Origin: Spirochaetota bacterium
Lineage (GTDB): Bacteria; Spirochaetota; Spirochaetia; Treponematales; Rectinemataceae
Length of the DNA: 64,000 nt
Assembly: GCA_029265615.1 (NCBI GenBank)
Contig: JAJUIB010000004.1
Location: 1 to 64,000, forward strand
Direction: 5' to 3'
The position numbers and the translations under genes are program-made. Shown piece after piece: positions 4,533 through 61,190 of the stretch (position 1 is the stretch's first letter; each line of letters opens with the position of its first letter). Under the pieces are notes generated by a model that was not told the DNA's origin, did not search any database, and was given only the letters and a program-made list of their open reading frames with translations.

Positions 4533-6323
4533 ATGGCCTACAAGAATTTCATCCTGGTCTGCGGCGGCACCGGCTGCGAGTCGAGCAGGGCCGACGAGAT
4601 CTACCAGAACCTCGTCCGCGAGGCCGAGGCACAGGGCGTCAAGAACGATGTCCAGGTTGTCAAAACGGGCTGCTTTGGCTTCTGCGAAAAGGGCCCGATT
4701 GTGAAGGTTCTTCCCTCGGAGTCCTTTTATGTCGAGGTGAAGCCTGAGGACGCCAAGGAGATCATCGCCGAGCAGGTTGTCAAGGGCCGCGAGGTCAAGC
4801 GCCTTCTTTATAAAAAGGACGCGAAGGCCGCAGAGAACGTCAAGGTCGAGGACATCGAGTTCTACCAGAAGCAGTTCCGCATCGTCTTGCGCAACTGCGG
4901 CGTCATCAACCCGGAGAACATCGACGAGTACATCGCGCGTGACGGCTACGCTGCGCTCGAGAAAGTGCTCTTCCAGATGAAGCCCGAGGACGTCATCAAC
5001 GAACTCAAGATATCCGGCCTTCGCGGCCGCGGCGGCGCGGGCTTTCCCACCTGGCGCAAGTGGGAATTTTCTCGTGTGCCGCAGGCCGACCAGAAATACG
5101 TTGTCTGCAACGCCGACGAGGGCGACCCGGGCGCCTACATGGACCGCTCGACCATCGAGGGCGACCCCCACTCGGTGATCGAAGCTATGACGATCTGCGG
5201 CAAGACGATCGGCGCCACGAAGGGCTATGTGTACATCCGTGCCGAGTACCCGCTCGCCATCGATCGCCTCAAGATCGCCATCCAGCAGGCGCACGACTAC
5301 GGACTTCTTGGCAAGAACATCCTCGGCTCGGGCTTTGACTTCGACCTCGAGATCCGCCTCGGCGCCGGCGCCTTTGTCTGCGGCGAAGAGACGGCCCTTC
5401 TCCAGTCCGTCGAGGGCAAGCGCGGCATGCCCATCCCCCGCCCGCCCTTCCCCGCGGTGAAGGGGCTCTGGGGTAAGCCCACGGTCATCAACAACGTCGA
5501 GACCTGGGCGAACATCCCGGTTATCATCAATAAGGGTGGTGCGTGGTTTGCGAAGATCGGCACCGAGACATCGAAGGGCACGAAGGTCTTTGCCCTCACC
5601 GGCAAGATCAATAACTCCGGCCTCGTCGAGGTGCCGATGGGCACGACGCTCCGTGAGATCATCTTCGACATCGGCGGCGGCATCAAGGGCGGCAAGAAGT
5701 TCAAGGGCGCCCAGACTGGCGGCCCCTCCGGCGGCATCATCACCGCCGACTACCTCGACACGCCCATCGACTACGAGAGCCTGACCGCCCTCGGCTCGAT
5801 GATGGGATCGGGCGGCCTCATCGTCATGGACGAGGATGACTGCGTCGTCAATATCTCCAAGTTCTACATGGAGTTCTGCGTTGACGAGTCCTGCGGCAAG
5901 TGCGCCCCCTGCCGGGTCGGTACGAACCAGATGCATGCGATCCTCGAAAAGATCACCGACGGCAAGGGCACCCGTGAAGATCTTGATAAGCTCAAGAAGA
6001 TCGGCATGGCGATGAAGAAGGCGGCCCTCTGCGGTCTCGGCCAGACCGCGCCGAACCCAACGCTTTCGACGCTCAAATATTTCGAGAAGGACTACCTCGA
6101 GCACATCGACGAGCGGAAGTGTGTCGCCGGCAAGTGCAAGAAGCTCGTTGTCTTCGAGATCGATCCTGCGAAGTGCATCGGCTGCGGCCTCTGCGCCCGC
6201 CGTTGCCCCGTGAACTGCATCACGGGCGAAAAGAAGCAGGCGCACGTTATCGACAAGATGAAGTGCATCAAGTGCGGCGAGTGCTACAACGCCTGCAAGT
6301 TCGGCGCCATCGTCAAGAAGTGA
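4533..6323 (+). CDS. hydB: NADH-dependent [FeFe]-hydrogenase subunit B (NuoF-like, flavin subunit)
   Basis: 596 residues, full length for HydB. Order of domains: N-terminal thioredoxin-like [2Fe-2S] domain (CGGTGC ... GCFGFC, residues 10-55); NuoF core with FMN/NADH-binding GLRGRGGAGFP (near 165) and CNADEGDPGAYMDR; the NuoF [4Fe-4S] site SCGKCAPCRVG (near 452); and two C-terminal ferredoxin [4Fe-4S] motifs, CIGCGLCARRCP and CIKCGECYNACKF (about 548-590). It oxidises or reduces NAD(H) and, in bifurcating enzymes, is the site where electrons split between NADH and ferredoxin. A GGAGG-like site precedes the ATG. Confidence 0.95.
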   Translation: MAYKNFILVCGGTGCESSRADEIYQNLVREAEAQGVKNDVQVVKTGCFGFCEKGPIVKVLPSESFYVEVKPEDAKEIIAEQVVKGREVKRLLYKKDAKAAENVKVEDIEFYQKQFRIVLRNCGVINPENIDEYIARDGYAALEKVLFQMKPEDVINELKISGLRGRGGAGFPTWRKWEFSRVPQADQKYVVCNADEGDPGAYMDRSTIEGDPHSVIEAMTICGKTIGATKGYVYIRAEYPLAIDRLKIAIQQAHDYGLLGKNILGSGFDFDLEIRLGAGAFVCGEETALLQSVEGKRGMPIPRPPFPAVKGLWGKPTVINNVETWANIPVIINKGGAWFAKIGTETSKGTKVFALTGKINNSGLVEVPMGTTLREIIFDIGGGIKGGKKFKGAQTGGPSGGIITADYLDTPIDYESLTALGSMMGSGGLIVMDEDDCVVNISKFYMEFCVDESCGKCAPCRVGTNQMHAILEKITDGKGTREDLDKLKKIGMAMKKAALCGLGQTAPNPTLSTLKYFEKDYLEHIDERKCVAGKCKKLVVFEIDPAKCIGCGLCARRCPVNCITGEKKQAHVIDKMKCIKCGECYNACKFGAIVKK

Positions 6324-52954: not shown

Positions 52955-52996
52955 GGCTACCTCTCTCGCTATGTATTATCGGCATGTGGATCGCGC

Positions 52997-53025
52997 TTGC
53001 CCGGGCCTGGCTTTCGCGGCATACT
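52997..53025 (+). promoter_or_regulatory. Promoter for leaderless CBS-HATPase mRNA
   Basis: TTGCCC (52997-53002), 17 nt, CATACT (53020-53025), then 6 nt to the ATG at 53032. No Shine-Dalgarno. Confidence 0.5.
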
Positions 53026-53031
53026 GGCCGT

Positions 53032-53955
53032 ATGCCCTCTGTGCCGATCAGTCCCGACGCGGGTCCGCAGGTCGTTCTTGAACTTCTCTACAGGCTCAAG
53101 GTCCGCGACGTGATGAGTGCGCCGGTCATCACCGCCTCGCCGCGCGAAAGCATGCGCGCGATCCAGTTCAGGATGCGCGACAACGGGATAACGGGCGTCC
53201 CCATCGTCGAGGAGGATCGACTTGTCGGCCTCGTCGCGATCAGCGATGTCATCGACGCACTCGACAAGGGCAGGATCAATGAACCGGCCGAGGCGCTCAT
53301 GGCGAAGACGCTCATCGTTCTCGAGGACGACATGCCGCTCGCCTTCGCAACGACCTACTTCAACCGGTACAGCTACGGCCGGTTCCCGGTGCTCGACCGC
53401 TCGGGGAGGCTTGTCGGCGTGATCGCCGCTTCCGACATCATCCGCGCGCTCCTCGTTGCGATGAACGAGGAAGTGCAACGCCTCGAGGAGCGCCTGTCCG
53501 AGCGGCTTGCCGCGGAGGCGGCCGCGCGTCCGCCCGACGGGATGACGCGGCTTTCCTTCCCCGTCGTCCGCTTCGACTTCGAAAATGCAGGTTCGGCGAG
53601 CGCTGCGATCAAGAAGGAACTCAAGGCCCGTGGCATCGATCCGGCGATCGTGCGGCGCGCGGCCGTCGCAAGTTACGAGCTTGAACTCAACGAGGTTATC
53701 CACTCCCTCGGCGGTACTATCTCCTGCGCGATCGGTGAAGGGCGAATCGAAATCCTTGCCGAAGACCGCGGCCCAGGCATTCCCGACCTCGAGGCCGCGA
53801 TGCGCGAGGGCTTTTCTACGGCGAACGAGTGGATCCGTTCCCTGGGTTTCGGTGCAGGCATGGGATTGCCGAACGCGCGCCGCGTCTCCGACGATTTTTC
53901 GCTCGACTCGGGCCCCGACCGGGGCACGACCGTCAGGGTCATCATCAACTACTGA
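53032..53955 (+). CDS. CBS-pair protein with anti-sigma-like HATPase domain
   Basis: 307 residues. Two CBS motifs (about 20-145: VRDVMSAPVITASPRES; GITGVPIVEEDRLVGLVAISDVIDAL; RFPVLDRSGRLVGVIAASDIIRAL), a short coiled coil, then an RsbW-like HATPase (about 180-305) with N box SYELELNEVIHS, G1 AEDRGPGIPD and GAGMGLPN. CBS pairs usually sense adenosine nucleotides, so it may couple energy or redox state to a phosphotransfer or partner switch. Proteins of this build are common next to hydrogenase genes in anaerobes. It is followed 17 bp later by the DRTGG gene. Confidence 0.85.
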   Translation: MPSVPISPDAGPQVVLELLYRLKVRDVMSAPVITASPRESMRAIQFRMRDNGITGVPIVEEDRLVGLVAISDVIDALDKGRINEPAEALMAKTLIVLEDDMPLAFATTYFNRYSYGRFPVLDRSGRLVGVIAASDIIRALLVAMNEEVQRLEERLSERLAAEAAARPPDGMTRLSFPVVRFDFENAGSASAAIKKELKARGIDPAIVRRAAVASYELELNEVIHSLGGTISCAIGEGRIEILAEDRGPGIPDLEAAMREGFSTANEWIRSLGFGAGMGLPNARRVSDDFSLDSGPDRGTTVRVIINY

Positions 53956-53972
53956 TTTTGAAGGAGCGCACG

Positions 53973-54317
53973 ATGCTGGTAAGCGATCTTGAGCGGCGGT
54001 TCGGCTACCGCGCGGTTCAGGGCGAGTTCGCCGACCGGGAGCTTTCGGGGGGCTATACCTCCGATCTTCTTTCCGATGTGATGGCGAACGCCAAGGCCGA
54101 TTCGGTCCTCGTGACGATCCAGGCACACAAGAACACCGTCGCGGTCGCAAGCCTCGTGGGCATAGCCGCGGTCGTTGTCTGCAACGAACGGCCGATTCCC
54201 GACGACATGATTGAAGCCGCGCGCGCCGAGGGGCTTGCCCTGTTCGTCACCGCCGAGAGCCAGTTCGAGGTTTCGGGGCGGCTCTGGCCCGAGCTCGGTA
54301 CCGGTTCGGGGCGCTGA
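53973..54317 (+). CDS. DRTGG-domain protein
   Basis: 114 residues. The sequence fits a stand-alone DRTGG domain, with a conserved GGYTSDLLSDVMANAKADSVLV segment and VVVCNERPIPDDMIEAARAEGL. DRTGG domains also occur in phosphotransacetylase N-termini; their ligand is uncertain. AAGGAG stands 7 nt before the ATG. It lies between the CBS-HATPase and PHP genes, an order also seen beside clostridial hydABC genes. Confidence 0.82.
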   Translation: MLVSDLERRFGYRAVQGEFADRELSGGYTSDLLSDVMANAKADSVLVTIQAHKNTVAVASLVGIAAVVVCNERPIPDDMIEAARAEGLALFVTAESQFEVSGRLWPELGTGSGR

Positions 54318-54353
54318 GTTTACGGCGCCGTTTCGCCCGAGGATCTGGCGATC

Positions 54354-55157
54354 GTGACGCGCACACGCGCGTGGCATCTGGCCGATTTTCACAACCACTC
54401 CTGCCTTTCGCCCTGTGCCTCGCTTGAGCTTTCGCCCTCGCTCCTTGCGCGTCAGGCGCGAGGCAAGGGACTCAAGCTCCTTGCGCTGACGGACCACAAT
54501 GCAGCGCTGAACTGCCCCGCCTTTGCCCGCGCCTGCGCCCGTGAGGGCGTCGCGCCCCTTGCGGGCATCGAGGCCAGTTCGCGCGAGGAAGTGCATGTGC
54601 TTTGCCTCTTCGGCTCGCCCGAGCAAGCGCTCGCCTTCGGCGAGCGCTTGCTCGGGCTCCTACCCGAATTGCCCTACGATCCGGAAAAACTCGGCGACGA
54701 GGCGGTGGTCGACGAGGCCGAGAACGTTCTTGAACTCTGCGATCGCTACTTGGGTGCCGCCCTCGACATCGATTTTGACGCGCTCTGCGCCGAGGCCTGC
54801 GGAGCGGGGGCGCTCGTGGTGCCCGCCCACGTCGACAGGCCCATGTTTTCGGTGTCAAGCCAGCTCGGCTTTCTGCCGCCGGGACCCTACGCCGCGGTCG
54901 AGGCGATGCGCGAACCTCTTCCTGCGCTGTGCGGGGGGTGCGCCGTCATTTCGGGCTCCGATGCGCATGTTCCCGAGCATGTCGGCCGCCGCGCCTTCGA
55001 AATCGACATCGACGGAGAAATTCTCGAGGCGGCGATAGTCGGCGCCGGCGCAGGCGGAGGTGCCGCCTTGCGCGCAGGCGAGGAGCTCCTTGCTGCGGTC
55101 CGCGAGGCCTTTGACCGCAAAGCCGTGCTTCCGTCCTGGGCGCGGGGGGGGGCATGA
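54354..55157 (+). CDS. PHP-domain metal-dependent phosphoesterase
   Basis: 267 residues. PHP motifs: ADFHNHSCLSPCA (HxH), LLALTDHN, GIEASSREEVHVL, a late PAHVDRP and SGSDAHVPEHVG. It should be a metal-dependent phosphoesterase with an unknown, probably nucleotide-like, substrate. GTG start with GAGGA about 11 nt before it. Its end overlaps the giant kinase gene (ATGA at 55154-55157), showing coupling of this cluster to the two-component genes. Confidence 0.85.
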   Translation: MTRTRAWHLADFHNHSCLSPCASLELSPSLLARQARGKGLKLLALTDHNAALNCPAFARACAREGVAPLAGIEASSREEVHVLCLFGSPEQALAFGERLLGLLPELPYDPEKLGDEAVVDEAENVLELCDRYLGAALDIDFDALCAEACGAGALVVPAHVDRPMFSVSSQLGFLPPGPYAAVEAMREPLPALCGGCAVISGSDAHVPEHVGRRAFEIDIDGEILEAAIVGAGAGGGAALRAGEELLAAVREAFDRKAVLPSWARGGA

Positions 55158-58100
55158 ACAGCCACGGCGCCATGGGGGGGCAAGGGAGCGCGCGGCTCCT
55201 TTCTGTCTGTGTTATTACGGCCTTCGTAGTGGCCTGTGCGCTTGGACTCGTTCGGGCGGGGAACCTGGCGGCGGATATAGACGCCCGGCCGATCGCAGCC
55301 GTCGAGCTACGAGAAGGCGCATCCTGGGTTTCGGTGTACAAGGCCGCCCTGGTCTATGCCGAAGGTGAGGGCGGGGACGCACCCGACGCCCTCGGCTTTG
55401 TGCCCGATCCGCGGTATTTTAAGCCGCTGTCCTCGCTCGATCAGCTTTCCCCTCGGTCCGGCGACAAGGCGGTGTGGCTCGCATTCAGCGTTCGGAGTGC
55501 GGCATCGGCGCGAAGCTGGCTGCTTTCGGTCGGCCCCCCCTCCGTGCCGCGCCTCGCGTTGTGGTCAATCGCGCCCAATGGCCGCGTGGACGAGACGCTC
55601 GCGGGGAGCCATGATCTGCGCGCCGCGCGGGCGCACGGTTTTTCCGATTATGTCTTCCGTCTGACGCTCGCACCGGGCGAGCTCCGCACCCTGTACCTCC
55701 GCGTCGCCGCGCGCCCCGGCGAAGGCGTCCGCGCGGCGCTCTGGGACGCGCTTGCGTTCGCGCGCTACGATGCGCTCGGTGCGGCCTTCGCGGGCATTTT
55801 TGCAGGGGTCATGCTGGCGCTTTTTGCCTACGCGGCCTTTGTATCGCTTCCCCTGCGCGACCGGGCCTATTATTTCCACTTTCTGTTTCTTGTGGGACTC
55901 TTCGGGGAGGCGCTTGTAACAAGCGGGGCTGGGCGCGCCATTTTGTGGCGCGATGCCTTCGACAGCGCCGCGTCATCCCTTTTCGCAAGTCTCATGGCCG
56001 CAGGCGGGATGCTTTTTACCCGCGAGTATCTCGGTGAGCGCCTGAAGCCCCGGCTACTGTCTATTGCATTGGTCGCCTACCCCCTCGTTCTGCCTTTCGC
56101 GCTCGGCGCCATCCTGCTTGCTGGGCCGCGTTTTGGGCCGATCGGGGCTCGCTATCTCCTCCTGGGCATGCTCGGTCTCTGTCTTGCGGCCGCGCTCGCC
56201 TCTGGTCTTCGTAGCGAACGGCGCGCGAGGGTGCTCGCCGCAGCCTGGGCTTCGGCATTTACGGGCGCGGTGCTCTCGTTTCTTCCGCGGAGCCTTGCCT
56301 CGGGACCCTACCTTGAGTTCGCCCTGGCGCAGGCGGCGCTCGCCGGCCTCCTCGCCGCGGCGCTCATCTTTATTTTCGGTATCGCTGGCGACCTCGCCCA
56401 GGCCAAGCGCGAACGCGAAGCCGCGCAACTACGCTCGATCGCGCTTCTTGAGCGGGCAAATCGGGTCAAAGAGGATTTTCTTTTTCGGATTGGACTCGAT
56501 GTGGGAGGGCCGCTTTTCGGCATCCTGGGGCTCGTAGAACGCCTTGAACGGCGGAAAGCTCGGCGCGGCGGCGCGGAGGGGGACGAGGAGGATCGCCTTC
56601 TTGCTCTCGCACGCGCGGAGACCGAGCGTCTCCTCAATCTCGTACGGAATATCGAGGCCTACGCGCGTATCCGAAACCGCGATCTTGTGCTGAGCGCCGA
56701 GCCCATTCCCTTACGCGAGGCGATCGAGGAGATCGTCAATGCGGCATCCTACCTCGCGGCCGAGAAGGACCTCGTAACGAGCGTGGAGGTCGAGGACGCA
56801 GAGCTCCTTTCCGATGTGCGCGCCTTCCACCAGATACTCTACACTGTGCTTGTGACCGCTCTCCGCGCAAGCGATTCAGGACGCGTTGCCGTGAGCGCGG
56901 GTCTGCGCGGCGACCAGGTCCAGATCGTCGTGCTTGACGCGGCTCCGCCCCTTCCTGCCGAGGTGGTCGCACGTGTGTTTCATGGCCAGCCCGACGAAGC
57001 CGAAGAGCTCGGCCCCGGCCTCGAGCTGCTTGTCGCGCGCCGCCTTGCGGAACTCCTTGGCGGGAGTTTGAGCTACCGCTATGACAACGGATCCGGCCGC
57101 TACACCTGTGCACTTGCGCGCCGCGCACCATTCGCGGATGCGGCGGCGCCGCGTGAACGTCGGCGCCGCCGCGATGAAGGTCGCGGGCGGTATGCGGCGG
57201 TGCCGGCGCACGTGGCGGACGATGCTCGCCCCGGGGACAGGGCGCTTCGCGGCGCCGTCCTTGCCGCGAGCTCCGATCCGGTGTTTCTCGAGGCGATGCG
57301 CGGCTATCTCGAGGAGCGGGGCTATGCCGTGACTGCCGTTTCCTCGGTCCGCCGCGCCGCCGACCTCATCGAGGCGGGAAGCGATGTCGACATCGTCATT
57401 CTCGACGGTGCGGGAGGCGGCATGCCCGATCTCGAGGCCTTTGCGCGGATACGCCGCGTGCGGCCGCTTGGCGAATTGCCTGTTCTCGCGATGACCGACC
57501 GCGACCACCCTGAAGACGCCGCCTTCGCGCTCCGCGCTGGGGCCGACGACTATCTACCGCGCCTTTCGCCGCCTGAAATCCTCTACGCGCGGATCGATGC
57601 GCGGGTCGCTCTGAAGCGCGCCGTTGCCGAGATCCTCGAAACGCGCCGCCGCGTCGCTGAGCTCGACAAGCTCAAGACGCTCGGCGTCCTTTCCGCGGGG
57701 CTCGCGCACGAGATCAACACGCCGAACAACGCCGTGCTGCGCAATGTGCCGATTCTTGCAGAGGTGTGGCGCGAAATTCAGCCTATGATCGGGCGCTACC
57801 GCGAGGAGTATGGCGATTTTAACATCAGGGGCTGGAGCGCCGACGAAGTTCAGGCCGAAGTGCCTGAACTTCTTGCTGATACCTACGACGCCGGCAGGCA
57901 GATCAAGAAAATCGTCGAGGATCTCAAGGAGTATGCGCGTGCGCCAGAAAACGCCGAGTTCGAGGAGGTCGACCTCGCGGAGGTCGCCGCCTATGCGGCG
58001 CGACTTCTCGGCCCCGCGGTCGAAAAGGCGACGAAGCGTTTTTCCATCGAGGCGGAAAAGCCTCTTCTGCCCGTCCGAGCCGATTTTCGCAAGCTCACGC

Positions 58101-58477
58101 AGGTTGTGGTCAATCTCCTCGAGAACGCCTTGGCAGCCCTGCCCGGGCCGGAGGCGGCGGTGCGCCTGCGCGTCTACGTCGAGGATCAGTCGCCATCCTC
58201 CGACATGACTCCGCGCTCTGCATCCCGGCCTCGGGTCATCCTCGAGTGCTGCGACGAGGGTGTGGGCATACCGTCCGAGCTCCTTGGCCGGATTTTCGAG
58301 CCTTTTTTTACGACCAAGCGCGAGCGCGGCGGTTCGGGCCTCGGCCTTCCTGTCTCGCTGGGCATCGTGCGCGAGTGCGGCGGTGACCTTGAAATTGGTC
58401 CTGCTCCGGGCGGCGGCACGCTGGCCCGCCTTTCCCTCCCCGCGGCGGTAGAGGCGCCGCAAAAGGAAATGCGATGA
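55154..58477 (+). CDS. 7TM-type hybrid histidine kinase with an inactive first kinase and receiver
   Basis: 1107 residues. Signal anchor (about 15-35); periplasmic 7TMR-DISM-like domain (to about 205); seven membrane helices (about 210-420). A first HisKA/HATPase unit (about 437-665) is degenerate: FLFRIGLDVGGPL has Leu where the phospho-His should be, and its G1 box reads VLDAAPPL. A receiver-like domain follows (698-815) without the acidic pair (LAASSD) or the conserved Lys (LPRLSP). A second kinase core looks active: AGLAHEINTPNNAV (His near 852), VVNLLENALAAL, DEGVGIP, FEPFFTT, GSGLGLP. The neighbouring NtrC-type regulator, overlapping by 4 nt, is the likely target. Confidence 0.88.
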   Translation: MNSHGAMGGQGSARLLSVCVITAFVVACALGLVRAGNLAADIDARPIAAVELREGASWVSVYKAALVYAEGEGGDAPDALGFVPDPRYFKPLSSLDQLSPRSGDKAVWLAFSVRSAASARSWLLSVGPPSVPRLALWSIAPNGRVDETLAGSHDLRAARAHGFSDYVFRLTLAPGELRTLYLRVAARPGEGVRAALWDALAFARYDALGAAFAGIFAGVMLALFAYAAFVSLPLRDRAYYFHFLFLVGLFGEALVTSGAGRAILWRDAFDSAASSLFASLMAAGGMLFTREYLGERLKPRLLSIALVAYPLVLPFALGAILLAGPRFGPIGARYLLLGMLGLCLAAALASGLRSERRARVLAAAWASAFTGAVLSFLPRSLASGPYLEFALAQAALAGLLAAALIFIFGIAGDLAQAKREREAAQLRSIALLERANRVKEDFLFRIGLDVGGPLFGILGLVERLERRKARRGGAEGDEEDRLLALARAETERLLNLVRNIEAYARIRNRDLVLSAEPIPLREAIEEIVNAASYLAAEKDLVTSVEVEDAELLSDVRAFHQILYTVLVTALRASDSGRVAVSAGLRGDQVQIVVLDAAPPLPAEVVARVFHGQPDEAEELGPGLELLVARRLAELLGGSLSYRYDNGSGRYTCALARRAPFADAAAPRERRRRRDEGRGRYAAVPAHVADDARPGDRALRGAVLAASSDPVFLEAMRGYLEERGYAVTAVSSVRRAADLIEAGSDVDIVILDGAGGGMPDLEAFARIRRVRPLGELPVLAMTDRDHPEDAAFALRAGADDYLPRLSPPEILYARIDARVALKRAVAEILETRRRVAELDKLKTLGVLSAGLAHEINTPNNAVLRNVPILAEVWREIQPMIGRYREEYGDFNIRGWSADEVQAEVPELLADTYDAGRQIKKIVEDLKEYARAPENAEFEEVDLAEVAAYAARLLGPAVEKATKRFSIEAEKPLLPVRADFRKLTQVVVNLLENALAALPGPEAAVRLRVYVEDQSPSSDMTPRSASRPRVILECCDEGVGIPSELLGRIFEPFFTTKRERGGSGLGLPVSLGIVRECGGDLEIGPAPGGGTLARLSLPAAVEAPQKEMR

Positions 58478-59904
58478 GCGAAGAACGCAAAGCCACCATT
58501 CTGGTCGTCGATGACGACGCCGACGTGCTTAAACGGATCGATCGGCTACTCCGCTACGAGGGATTTTCCGACTTGATCCTCTGCAAGGATCCGCGGGAGG
58601 TCGAGCCGATCGTCGACACGCGCGACATCGCCGCGATGATTCTCGACCTTCTCATGCCTGGCATTTCTGGCCTCGAGCTACTAACATCGATCCGCGAGCG
58701 TCACCCCGAAATTCCGGTCATTGTTGCGACGGCGGTCAACGATCTCGACAGCGCGATCGCCTGCATGCGCGAAGGTGCCTTCGATTATGTGCCCAAGAGC
58801 GCCGAGACGGGCCGCCTCCTTGCGAGCATTCGGCATGCGCTTTCTATCCGCGAACTGCAGCGCGAGTACGGCGTACTCAAGGATAGCTTTCTTGCGGCGC
58901 GCAGGCCCGAATCGCCCGCCTTTGCGAAGATTATCACCCGCAACGAGCGCATGCTGTCGCTTCTTCGCTACGTCGAGACGGTGGCGCGTTCGCCCAAGCC
59001 GATACTCATCACCGGCGAATCGGGTACGGGCAAGGAGCTTATCGCGGAGGCGGTGCACCTTGTCTCCGGACGCCCAGGGCCCTATGTGACGCTCAACATA
59101 GCGGGGCTCGACGACACGATGTTTTCGGACAGCCTTTTCGGCCACCGGCGCGGCGCCTTCACCGGGGCGGAGACGGAGCGAGGCGGCCTTATCGAGCGGG
59201 CGGAGGGCGGTACGCTCTTCCTTGATGAAATCGGCGAGCTTTCGACCTCGTCGCAGATCAAGCTCCTCAGGCTGATCGAGGAAAAGCGCTACTACCCGCT
59301 CGGCGCCGATTTGCCGCGCAGTTCGAATGCCTCCGTCGTCACCGCAACGAATCGCGATCTGCGCGAAGCTTGCCGCGCGGGAAGCTTCCGTCTCGACCTC
59401 TTCTATCGGCTCCAAACCCACCTTGTCGAGCTACCGCCGCTCCGCGAACGCAAGGACGATCTTCCGCTGCTTCTTGAGCATTTTGTCGCAAAAGCAGCCG
59501 AGCGCTTCGAGCGGAAGACGCCCACCGTCCCCGAGGAGCTCGTGCTCCTTCTTGAAAACTACGACTTTCCGGGAAACGTGCGCGAGCTCGAGTCGATGGT
59601 GTATGACGCGGTGGGGCGTTGCAGTGGCGCCGCGCTTTCGCTCGAACCGTTCCGCGCGAAAATCCGCGGGGCGCGGCCTGGGCCGCAGGCCGCGCGGCGC
59701 CCCGATACGGGAGCGCATAACCGCTTTGCCTCCTTTGAGCGTCTTCCCACGATTCGCGAGGCGACCGAGGAGCTCATCGCCGAGGCGCTCCATCGCGCGA
59801 AGGGGAACCAGGGCATAGCCGCCGGTCTCCTCGGCCTGTCGCGAAGCGCCCTCAATCGGCGGATCGCCCAGCTACGCGAGCGGGATTTGGATGGCGACGA
59901 GTGA
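58474..59904 (+). CDS. NtrC-family sigma54-dependent response regulator
   Basis: 476 residues. Receiver (8-122: LVVDDDAD, phosphoacceptor LDLLMPG, YVPKS), AAA+ domain (about 148-380) with Walker A GESGTGKE, the sigma54-contact loop RGAFTGAE, Walker B LFLDEIGEL and the arginine finger region, then a C-terminal Fis-like HTH (HRAKGNQGIAAGLLGLSRSALNRRI). It activates sigma54 promoters when phosphorylated, presumably by the kinase encoded upstream. The tail HTH should bind a palindrome; one lies 24 bp after its stop, upstream of a sigma54-like site. Confidence 0.94.
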   Translation: MSEERKATILVVDDDADVLKRIDRLLRYEGFSDLILCKDPREVEPIVDTRDIAAMILDLLMPGISGLELLTSIRERHPEIPVIVATAVNDLDSAIACMREGAFDYVPKSAETGRLLASIRHALSIRELQREYGVLKDSFLAARRPESPAFAKIITRNERMLSLLRYVETVARSPKPILITGESGTGKELIAEAVHLVSGRPGPYVTLNIAGLDDTMFSDSLFGHRRGAFTGAETERGGLIERAEGGTLFLDEIGELSTSSQIKLLRLIEEKRYYPLGADLPRSSNASVVTATNRDLREACRAGSFRLDLFYRLQTHLVELPPLRERKDDLPLLLEHFVAKAAERFERKTPTVPEELVLLLENYDFPGNVRELESMVYDAVGRCSGAALSLEPFRAKIRGARPGPQAARRPDTGAHNRFASFERLPTIREATEELIAEALHRAKGNQGIAAGLLGLSRSALNRRIAQLRERDLDGDE

Positions 59905-59927: not shown

Positions 59928-59943
59928 TGTGCAAAAATGCACA
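59928..59943. promoter_or_regulatory. 16-bp palindrome, possible NtrC-type upstream activator site
   Basis: TGTGCA, AAAA, TGCACA: perfect 6-bp arms. It lies about 210 nt upstream of a sigma54-like promoter and directly after the NtrC-type regulator gene, an arrangement expected of an enhancer site. Confidence 0.45.
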
Positions 59944-60144
59944 GCTGTTGTGTTTTGCCCAGATGAGCAATTCTCGCTCCCGTAGCAGAATACGCTAAAA
60001 TCGCAAATCGTGCTTCTAAAAAAACGCACAACACCTCGATTCAGGCGGCGGGTAAAAGGACCGCAAAGCGCAGGCGCCAAGGGAGCAAGTGTATGTGCTA
60101 TAGCTTTTTACTGGCCAGGGAATGATTGCGTTGCGTCCTGTGAT

Positions 60145-60160
60145 TGGCACAGACCGTGCT
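60145..60160 (+). promoter_or_regulatory. Sigma54-like (-24/-12) promoter
   Basis: TGGCAC AGACC GTGCT keeps the invariant GG and GC with the required 10 nt between them. It matches TGGCAC-N5-TTGCW except that the first T of the -12 TTGC is G. The start site would lie near 60171. No protein gene follows on this strand, only a hairpin-rich stretch and a terminator. Confidence 0.5.
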
Positions 60161-60170
60161 CATATGTTGG

Positions 60171-60316
60171 TGCTGGTTGCTGTGAAGGTAAAAAAAGAGC
60201 CGTGCGGGAATCGCGGGGTTCCTGTCGGGAAGGTAAAAAACGTAGGGAGGTAAAAACGGCGGCTCGTGCCGGGCCGCCGGAATAAGGCCGTGCGGGGAGC
60301 TCGGCCTTATTTTTTT
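60171..60316 (+). ncRNA. Candidate sigma54-dependent small RNA
   Basis: This 146-nt stretch is framed by a sigma54-like promoter and a T-tailed hairpin on the + strand. It lies in the only non-coding gap of about 400 bp in the window (59905-60314). It contains three copies of G(A/G)AGGTAAAAA (60184, 60229, 60246), three GGGA elements, and a hairpin CGGCGGC/GCCGCCG (about 60257-60279) before the terminator. No known RNA family is recognised. It could instead be a long 3' UTR of the regulator gene or a short unrecognised peptide gene. Confidence 0.4.
60281..60316 (+). terminator. Rho-independent terminator on the + strand
   Basis: AATAAGGCCG (60281-60290), 11-nt loop, CGGCCTTATT (60302-60311), with seven T at 60310-60316. 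The T-tract is on the + side only, so it ends a rightward transcript, not the convergent gene at 60315. Confidence 0.88.
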
Positions 60317-61190
60317 ATCGTGCCCAGCGGACAGAGCACTCGATTGGTTTCTCGAGCGTGAGGAGGTCGAGGAGGGGGATGCCGAGCATAAAACCGCCTG
60401 CGACCGCTTGTCCGCCCGTCTGGCGTATGATGGCGCCGGGTAGTGCAATGCGCATCGTCAGTGCCGCCCCGTCGAGGGCGGGGAGGGCTTTTTCTCCGAG
60501 GATGCCTATAAGCATCTGGCGGTATTCGCTTGCGCTTACAGGATCCGAATCCAGCGCGGGGGGGGAAAGTGCGGCAAGTACGTCGGGATTAATGCCCGGA
60601 AAAAGATCGAGCAGGGCCGCACCCTGGTCGCGGGCGAGTCGAAGGCGGAATTCTGCCCATCCGGGGCCTTCGCTGTAACGGAACATGTCCGCCGCGGCAA
60701 GTTGGGGATCAGCGGCAAGCTCGGCCAGGCTACGCAGGGCGAGCTCGGCCGCCATCGAATCGCTCGTCGGGGCGCTGGCGCTTACGACGCGGAGGGCGGG
60801 GCGCGCGGCGAGCGAGCGGCGAAACGCCCCAGGGTTGAACAATGGTTCGTCGGGGCCGAGCGAGCCGAGCTTGCGGAGCTTTGTAGCAACTGTGGCGGGA
60901 ACTTCGGCTTTGAGCGTGATGCGCGCCCCGCCCTCCGCAAGAACCGCCACCGCGACCTGCGAGGAACAGGCGCCAAGAAGACCGGCCGAGGCGAGCACGG
61001 CGCCGGCGATCGCGATTCCCGCCAGCGCGAGAAGAAGGACGCGCTTGCCGCGAAACGAGGATACACCTTCTCCGCGCTTCGTTCGCGGTGATCCGCGGAC
61101 GACGACGCCGCCTGCGACGACAAGGGGGCTATCCCCGCGCCGTGGAGTTTTCCACGCCCGCTCTTCGTGTTCCGCACTGCTGTAACGCAT
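60315..61190 (-). CDS. Putative membrane-anchored or lipoprotein of unknown function
   Basis: 291 residues. A 48-residue basic N-terminus precedes one hydrophobic helix (VLLLALAGIAIAGAVLASAGLLGAC) that ends in a lipobox-like LGAC. The rest is a soluble, probably periplasmic domain with no family I know; it is Ala/Leu-rich with SEYRQMLIGILGEKALPAL near the end. AAGGAG stands about 8 nt before the ATG at 61190. If this start is right the protein is a type II anchored protein; with a start closer to the helix it would be a standard lipoprotein. Confidence 0.6.
   Translation of the reverse strand: MRYSSAEHEERAWKTPRRGDSPLVVAGGVVVRGSPRTKRGEGVSSFRGKRVLLLALAGIAIAGAVLASAGLLGACSSQVAVAVLAEGGARITLKAEVPATVATKLRKLGSLGPDEPLFNPGAFRRSLAARPALRVVSASAPTSDSMAAELALRSLAELAADPQLAAADMFRYSEGPGWAEFRLRLARDQGAALLDLFPGINPDVLAALSPPALDSDPVSASEYRQMLIGILGEKALPALDGAALTMRIALPGAIIRQTGGQAVAGGFMLGIPLLDLLTLEKPIECSVRWAR

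Follow-up and report, generated by a model that had tools for sequence, protein, structure and literature searches.

A predicted sigma54-dependent small RNA with repeated GUAAAAA elements, conserved beside an NtrC-type regulator in spirochaetes, as a candidate protein decoy

In a 64,000-nucleotide stretch of a Spirochaetota genome (the window), comparison among spirochaetes establishes, at the level of sequence, a predicted sigma54 promoter, a set of three GGTAAAAA repeats and a predicted terminator downstream of an NtrC-type regulator gene, the conservation of these parts in other genomes, and a second repeat-bearing RNA elsewhere in the same genome. As judged by comparison only, the locus very probably encodes a sigma54-driven, terminated small RNA, and this RNA probably serves as a decoy that titrates a putative RNA-binding protein. 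An enhancer-activated small RNA had already been proposed here in a sequence-only reading; the three repeats, absent from that reading, are the most telling feature of the locus.

The regulator locus and its predicted small RNA

The genome harboring the window (2.7 Mb) clusters with Spirochaetaceae MAGs and encodes rpoN. A hybrid sensor histidine kinase (55154..58477, + strand), with 7TMR-DISM, HisKA, REC and HATPase domains in Pfam, is the presumed partner of the NtrC-type response regulator at 58474..59904 (+), whose REC, Sigma54_activat and Fis-type HTH_8 domains, orthologues and position in the tree mark it as the presumed activator. The pair is maintained in relatives of the f1 and f4 groups, with the large kinase immediately 5' of the regulator. 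Upstream of the kinase, the same strand encodes a CBS-HATPase protein (52984-53955), a small ORF (~53973-54317) and a PHP-domain protein (54354-55157), a set (52984-55157) that we take to resemble accessory genes found near [FeFe]-hydrogenase clusters and that may hint at the signal.

Beyond the regulator stop (59904), the 16-bp palindrome described in the sequence-only reading, TGTGCAAAAATGCACA, lies at 59928..59943 (+) as an exact TGTGCA-AAAA-TGCACA and constitutes a presumed upstream activator site. Since 9% of shuffled versions of the intergenic region contain some 6-4-6 palindrome, the palindrome alone is weak and derives its weight from conservation: orthologous loci carry it right behind the stop of the regulator (TGTGCAAATATGCACA in L037, TGTGCATTTATGCACA in L009, TGTGCAAAATTGCACA in L012 and TGTGCGATTTTGCACA in L039). 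An A/T-centred palindrome of the TGTGCA-N4-TGCACA type occurs as a single copy in the window's genome. The sigma54 -24/-12 element, TGGCACAGACCGTGC (60145..60159, +), identified by pattern match and orthologue conservation, has the GG-N10-GC spacing claimed for it. Its conserved form, TGGCAYRN5TGC, has one match on both strands of the 64 kb, and 10 of 4000 shuffled versions of the intergenic region contain it, while three copies of GGTAAAAA appear in none of 4000 such shuffles. TGGCA[C/T]-N6-TGC is present in all 24 loci discussed below, mostly ~190-270 nt past the regulator stop; in an alignment of 23 orthologous loci TGGCA and TGC are conserved, and there is likewise no variation at promoter positions outside the search pattern, for example the T of TGC.

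With its start placed at ~60171, 12 nt past the -12 GC, and its end set at the T-run, the predicted small RNA spans ~146 nt (60171..60316, +), an assignment based on promoter spacing, the T-run and the fold; fold prediction yields a z of -3.3 for this segment. The three repeats lie on the + strand at 60187..60194, 60232..60239 and 60249..60256, and are followed by a predicted GC-rich hairpin (60257..60279) and by an intrinsic terminator (60281..60316) with a 10-bp stem (60281-60290/60302-60311) and a T7 run (60310-60316). The hairpin scan passed over this terminator because its loop exceeds 8 nt, and its occurrence on the + strand only agrees with what had been noticed earlier. The neighboring gene is indeed convergent, but the earlier statement that no coding gene lies close to the terminator does not stand: the gene, at 60315-61190 (-), ends at the terminator's edge, and the proper wording is hence that there is no co-directional gene.

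The enhancer-activated reading of the locus gains support from 24 distinct spirochaete loci in which a regulator orthologue (about 48-79% identity), its upstream sites, a sigma54 promoter and a short RNA come in this order, and it also fits the presence of rpoN in the genome and of a full NtrC-type regulator next door. A hairpin terminator lies 122-223 nt past the -24 element in 23 of these loci; in the remaining one, L032, the sequence runs into Ns. Within the f4 group, the terminator stem displays compensatory changes at 4 of its 11 pairs. Hand alignment shows a closing stem in the same group (GUCCC/GGGAC, also AUCCC/GGGAU and GCCCC/GGGGC) that RNAalifold did not recover from the automatic alignment, and this stem is only suggestive; the MAFFT alignment of all 23 RNAs has too many gaps to yield a useful covariance model. 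Searches with the Rfam 15 covariance models returned no match at E up to 1 / 0.5. The absence of a recognisable gene in the predicted RNA is borne out by the comparison of ORFs among the 23 orthologous RNAs, which revealed no common ORF. With a predicted -24/-12 promoter, a presumed enhancer-binding activator, a terminated RNA and no conserved ORF, the locus would fall within the general class of sigma54-dependent sRNAs.

Related regulators are also followed by sigma54 promoters in other phyla. In Entotheonella (L045, L048; ~5600-5780), a homologous regulator precedes a sigma54 promoter ahead of a pqqA-like peptide gene. In Deltaproteobacteria MAGs (L052, L058-L061, L064, L095, L104), a sigma54 promoter lies downstream of the related regulator, with a conserved leader behind it (CCTTCATGGA..GCGAAGGC); in several loci this leader precedes a REC-domain gene, and it may be a further RNA element. 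In the Nitrospirota (L053, L063), CAGCCTCTGGGGAATAAA-type repeats lie downstream of the regulator, in the stretch from the sigma54 promoter to the following gene.

The GUAAAA repeat and a second RNA

GTAAAA is present in all 24 RNAs and occurs in at least two copies in 21 of them (shuffles: mean 2.6, maximum 7), while none of the 24 control segments of 220 nt preceding the promoters contains two or more. The repeat consensus is A-D-GUAAAAA, where D is G, U or A, and the observed counts of extended motifs exceed expectation (AGGTAAAA, 25 vs. 1.35; ATGTAAAA, 15 vs. 0.7; AAGTAAAA, 15 vs. 2.35). In predicted folds, the A's within the motif have an unpaired value of 0.86, vs. 0.68 for the remaining A's. 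The RNA-bearing regulators form two fully supported clades in the tree (14 and 8 rows), not necessarily sisters, and their upstream palindromes differ by clade (TGTGCA-N4-TGCACA vs. CTATGC-N4-GCATAG), whereas the RNA repeat is identical. This is the pattern expected if the partner for which the repeat is selected is an RNA binder, as opposed to the activator or the DNA.

The window's genome contains 80 copies of GGTAAAAA, and these cluster at just two places: the window RNA and a second RNA (C35:20972-21130; L161 2440-2690), in which six GGTAAAAA-type repeats alternate with GC-rich hairpins and which ends in a strong, terminator-like hairpin (fold z -3.7). A counterpart with four repeats exists in the congener G001 (L162). 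A triple-repeat pattern run on 24 whole genomes matched only the second RNA of G001 and five of the sigma54 RNAs; the reversed control gave no match. When 393 genomes of the phylum were scanned with a combined promoter-plus-repeats pattern, whose strict spacing makes it miss many known cases, the window's own among them, it recovered G035 and, as a new carrier, G507; the other four matches resemble coding sequence or chance. In G507 (L254 1-435), a sigma54 promoter and two GGTAAAAA copies precede a membrane-protein-like ORF, from which no obvious terminator separates them, as though the RNA had turned into a leader.

The second RNA is suspected to be under sigma70-like control. Regulation by sigma54 was considered and rejected, given that the GG-N10-GC site in the window's genome is not conserved in the congener. 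A TGTAGACAACTGTCTACG box lies upstream of the second RNA in both genomes. Boxes of this type, TGTAGAC-N4-GTCTACA (L244 1601-2904; L237; L238), precede two paired genes, as in G017, one of which encodes a membrane protein whose C-terminus carries a LuxR-type HTH. In G008 and G017 the same box type, there also terminator-like, is located ~90 bp ahead of the first RNA's sigma54 promoter.

Alternative readings and candidate partners

The information at the locus could be read in several other ways. Mere read-through transcription of the regulator gene, or motifs brought together by chance, would fit the lack of a strong terminator between regulator stop and sigma54 element in the window (hairpin scan) and the ease with which a palindrome arises by chance (9%), yet such an explanation is the least credible here: the layout persists in 24 loci at 48-79% regulator identity, and a hairpin with a T-run lies between the regulator and the sigma54 promoter of L005 and of L032, which argues against the RNA as read-through. 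It is nearly as improbable that the transcript is a leader or a short coding RNA. The distant G507 arrangement, with a sigma54 promoter and repeats ahead of a gene, speaks for it, as does a 91-codon frame at 60010-60285 in the window, but this frame opens ahead of the predicted transcription start and matches nothing in Pfam, the ORFs of the 23 orthologous RNAs have nothing in common, and the RNA is closed by a terminator in 23 of 24 loci. The spacing of the repeats (45 and 17 nt in the window, not a multiple of 3; 11-16 nt in the halophile clade), together with the lack of a common frame, also argues against a conserved coding function. A halophile spacing near 11-13 bp would suit repeats acting as DNA to tune the sigma54 promoter, either as operator sites or as phased A-tracts, with the RNA as a by-product. 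We consider this quite unlikely, in view of the 45- and 17-bp spacing in the window and its wide variation elsewhere, of the different promoter type ahead of the second repeat set, and of the constant strand orientation with a terminator downstream.

A more serious alternative, which we still deem unlikely, is a base-pairing sRNA with multiple seeds, each GGUAAAAA pairing with UUUUUACC in target mRNAs in the manner of repeated-seed antisense sRNAs. The repeats are short, identical and mostly unpaired in prediction, and many of the 73 other GGTAAAAA sites in the genome lie antisense to predicted genes, meaning that some mRNAs carry UUUUUACC. Pairing through a short A-rich seed is weak, nevertheless, and canonical Hfq is absent; TTTTACC does not occur upstream of any of 381 predicted starts in 464 kb; and the variation of the motif (A-[GUA]-GUAAAAA, with GUAAACA and GUAAGAA variants) resembles protein recognition more.

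The reading that we favor is titration of a protein by the repeats, and the build of the RNA corresponds to that of known titrating RNAs. A signal sensed by the 7TMR-DISM kinase would activate the adjacent NtrC-type regulator, which would bind TGTGCA-N4-TGCACA ~200 bp upstream and elicit sigma54-dependent transcription of a stand-alone ~146-nt RNA. This RNA would present several A-D-GUAAAAA elements, presumably mostly unpaired, and draw a sequence-specific RNA-binding protein off its other targets, in the same way as CrcZ acts on Hfq and CsrB on CsrA. The second RNA, with six elements and a different promoter, could feed another signal into the same protein.

Two known proteins were considered as partners. 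Canonical Hfq is ruled out, being absent from all 59 genomes searched, in which the controls were found. CsrA is present, yet the GUAAAAA core of the repeat lacks GGA, and CsrA was likewise rejected. Targets were sought in ~460 kb (464 kb) of the window's genome, comprising sample stretches and the window. GTAAAA was not found upstream of any of the 381 predicted starts in these ~460 kb and is not enriched at ribosome-binding sites, and at most three of the 80 GGTAAAAA copies in the genome are plausible ribosome-binding-site candidates. Widespread motif targets at such sites were hence not found, the single textbook case being GAGGAGGTAAAAATG in L198, and the data lend no support to titration of a translational repressor that acts on many mRNAs; repression of many mRNAs via this element close to their start codons becomes less likely.

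Comparison with known systems and significance

Decoy action on Hfq has been shown for CrcZ and CrcY in Pseudomonas and Azotobacter (PMC4063720; PMC6292655; PMC6296734), and the CbrAB system has been described as exclusive to pseudomonads (PMC6296734). The predicted locus shares with CbrA/CbrB-CrcZ/CrcY a sensor kinase, an NtrC-type regulator and an adjoining sigma54-dependent sRNA, with its promoter in the intergenic region 3' of the regulator gene, as well as several A-rich repeats and a second sister RNA. The differences are substantial. CrcZ, at 407 nt, is longer than the ~146 nt predicted here, and its CA motifs, or (A-R-N)n, for the distal face of Hfq are replaced by A-D-GUAAAAA in an organism with no canonical Hfq. 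CbrA is a transporter-kinase 'transceptor', whereas no transporter domain was found by Pfam in the 7TMR-DISM kinase. The regulator falls below every NCBIfam equivalog cut-off and, judged by profiles and kinase domains, is probably not a CbrB, and its presumed upstream site is palindromic, unlike the CbrB subsites. The sister RNA CrcY is RpoN-dependent in Azotobacter (PMC6292655), whereas the second RNA described here has a different promoter that does not look like a sigma54 one.

CsrB/CsrC and RsmX/Y/Z resemble the predicted RNA in displaying a repeated single-stranded motif between hairpins on a terminated RNA, in the presence of more than one RNA per genome and in two-component control. They differ from it in their multiple GGA (ANGGA) motifs in hairpin loops and linkers, where the GUAAAAA core has no GGA, and in the predicted sigma54 control of the first RNA. 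The Qrr sRNAs of Vibrio are sigma54-dependent, rely on an NtrC-type activator (LuxO) and have one copy beside the regulator gene, an arrangement that the predicted RNA shares; they are Hfq-dependent antisense RNAs without such repeats, whereas the RNA in the window has GUAAAAA repeats and no Rfam match. With canonical Hfq absent and the motif devoid of the GGA of CsrA, the predicted RNA would be CrcZ- or CsrB-like in its working and a member of neither family.

To our knowledge, few RNA-binding regulators are known in spirochaetes. The absence of canonical Hfq from the 59 genomes agrees with the demonstration that BB0268 of Borrelia, reported as Hfq, is the flagellar protein FlgV and not Hfq (PMC11607428). 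There is an even chance, in our estimation, that the A-D-GUAAAAA RNAs make up a decoy family extending over several spirochaete lineages, in which at least two separately controlled RNAs converge on, and reveal, an undescribed global RNA-binding regulator of Hfq-less bacteria. If so, a CrcZ-like circuit would exist outside the pseudomonads with its components exchanged: its kinase would be of another type, its RNA motif would differ and Hfq would be missing. The conserved RNA, whose recognition element is clear and repeated, would in addition provide a ready bait for finding its protein.
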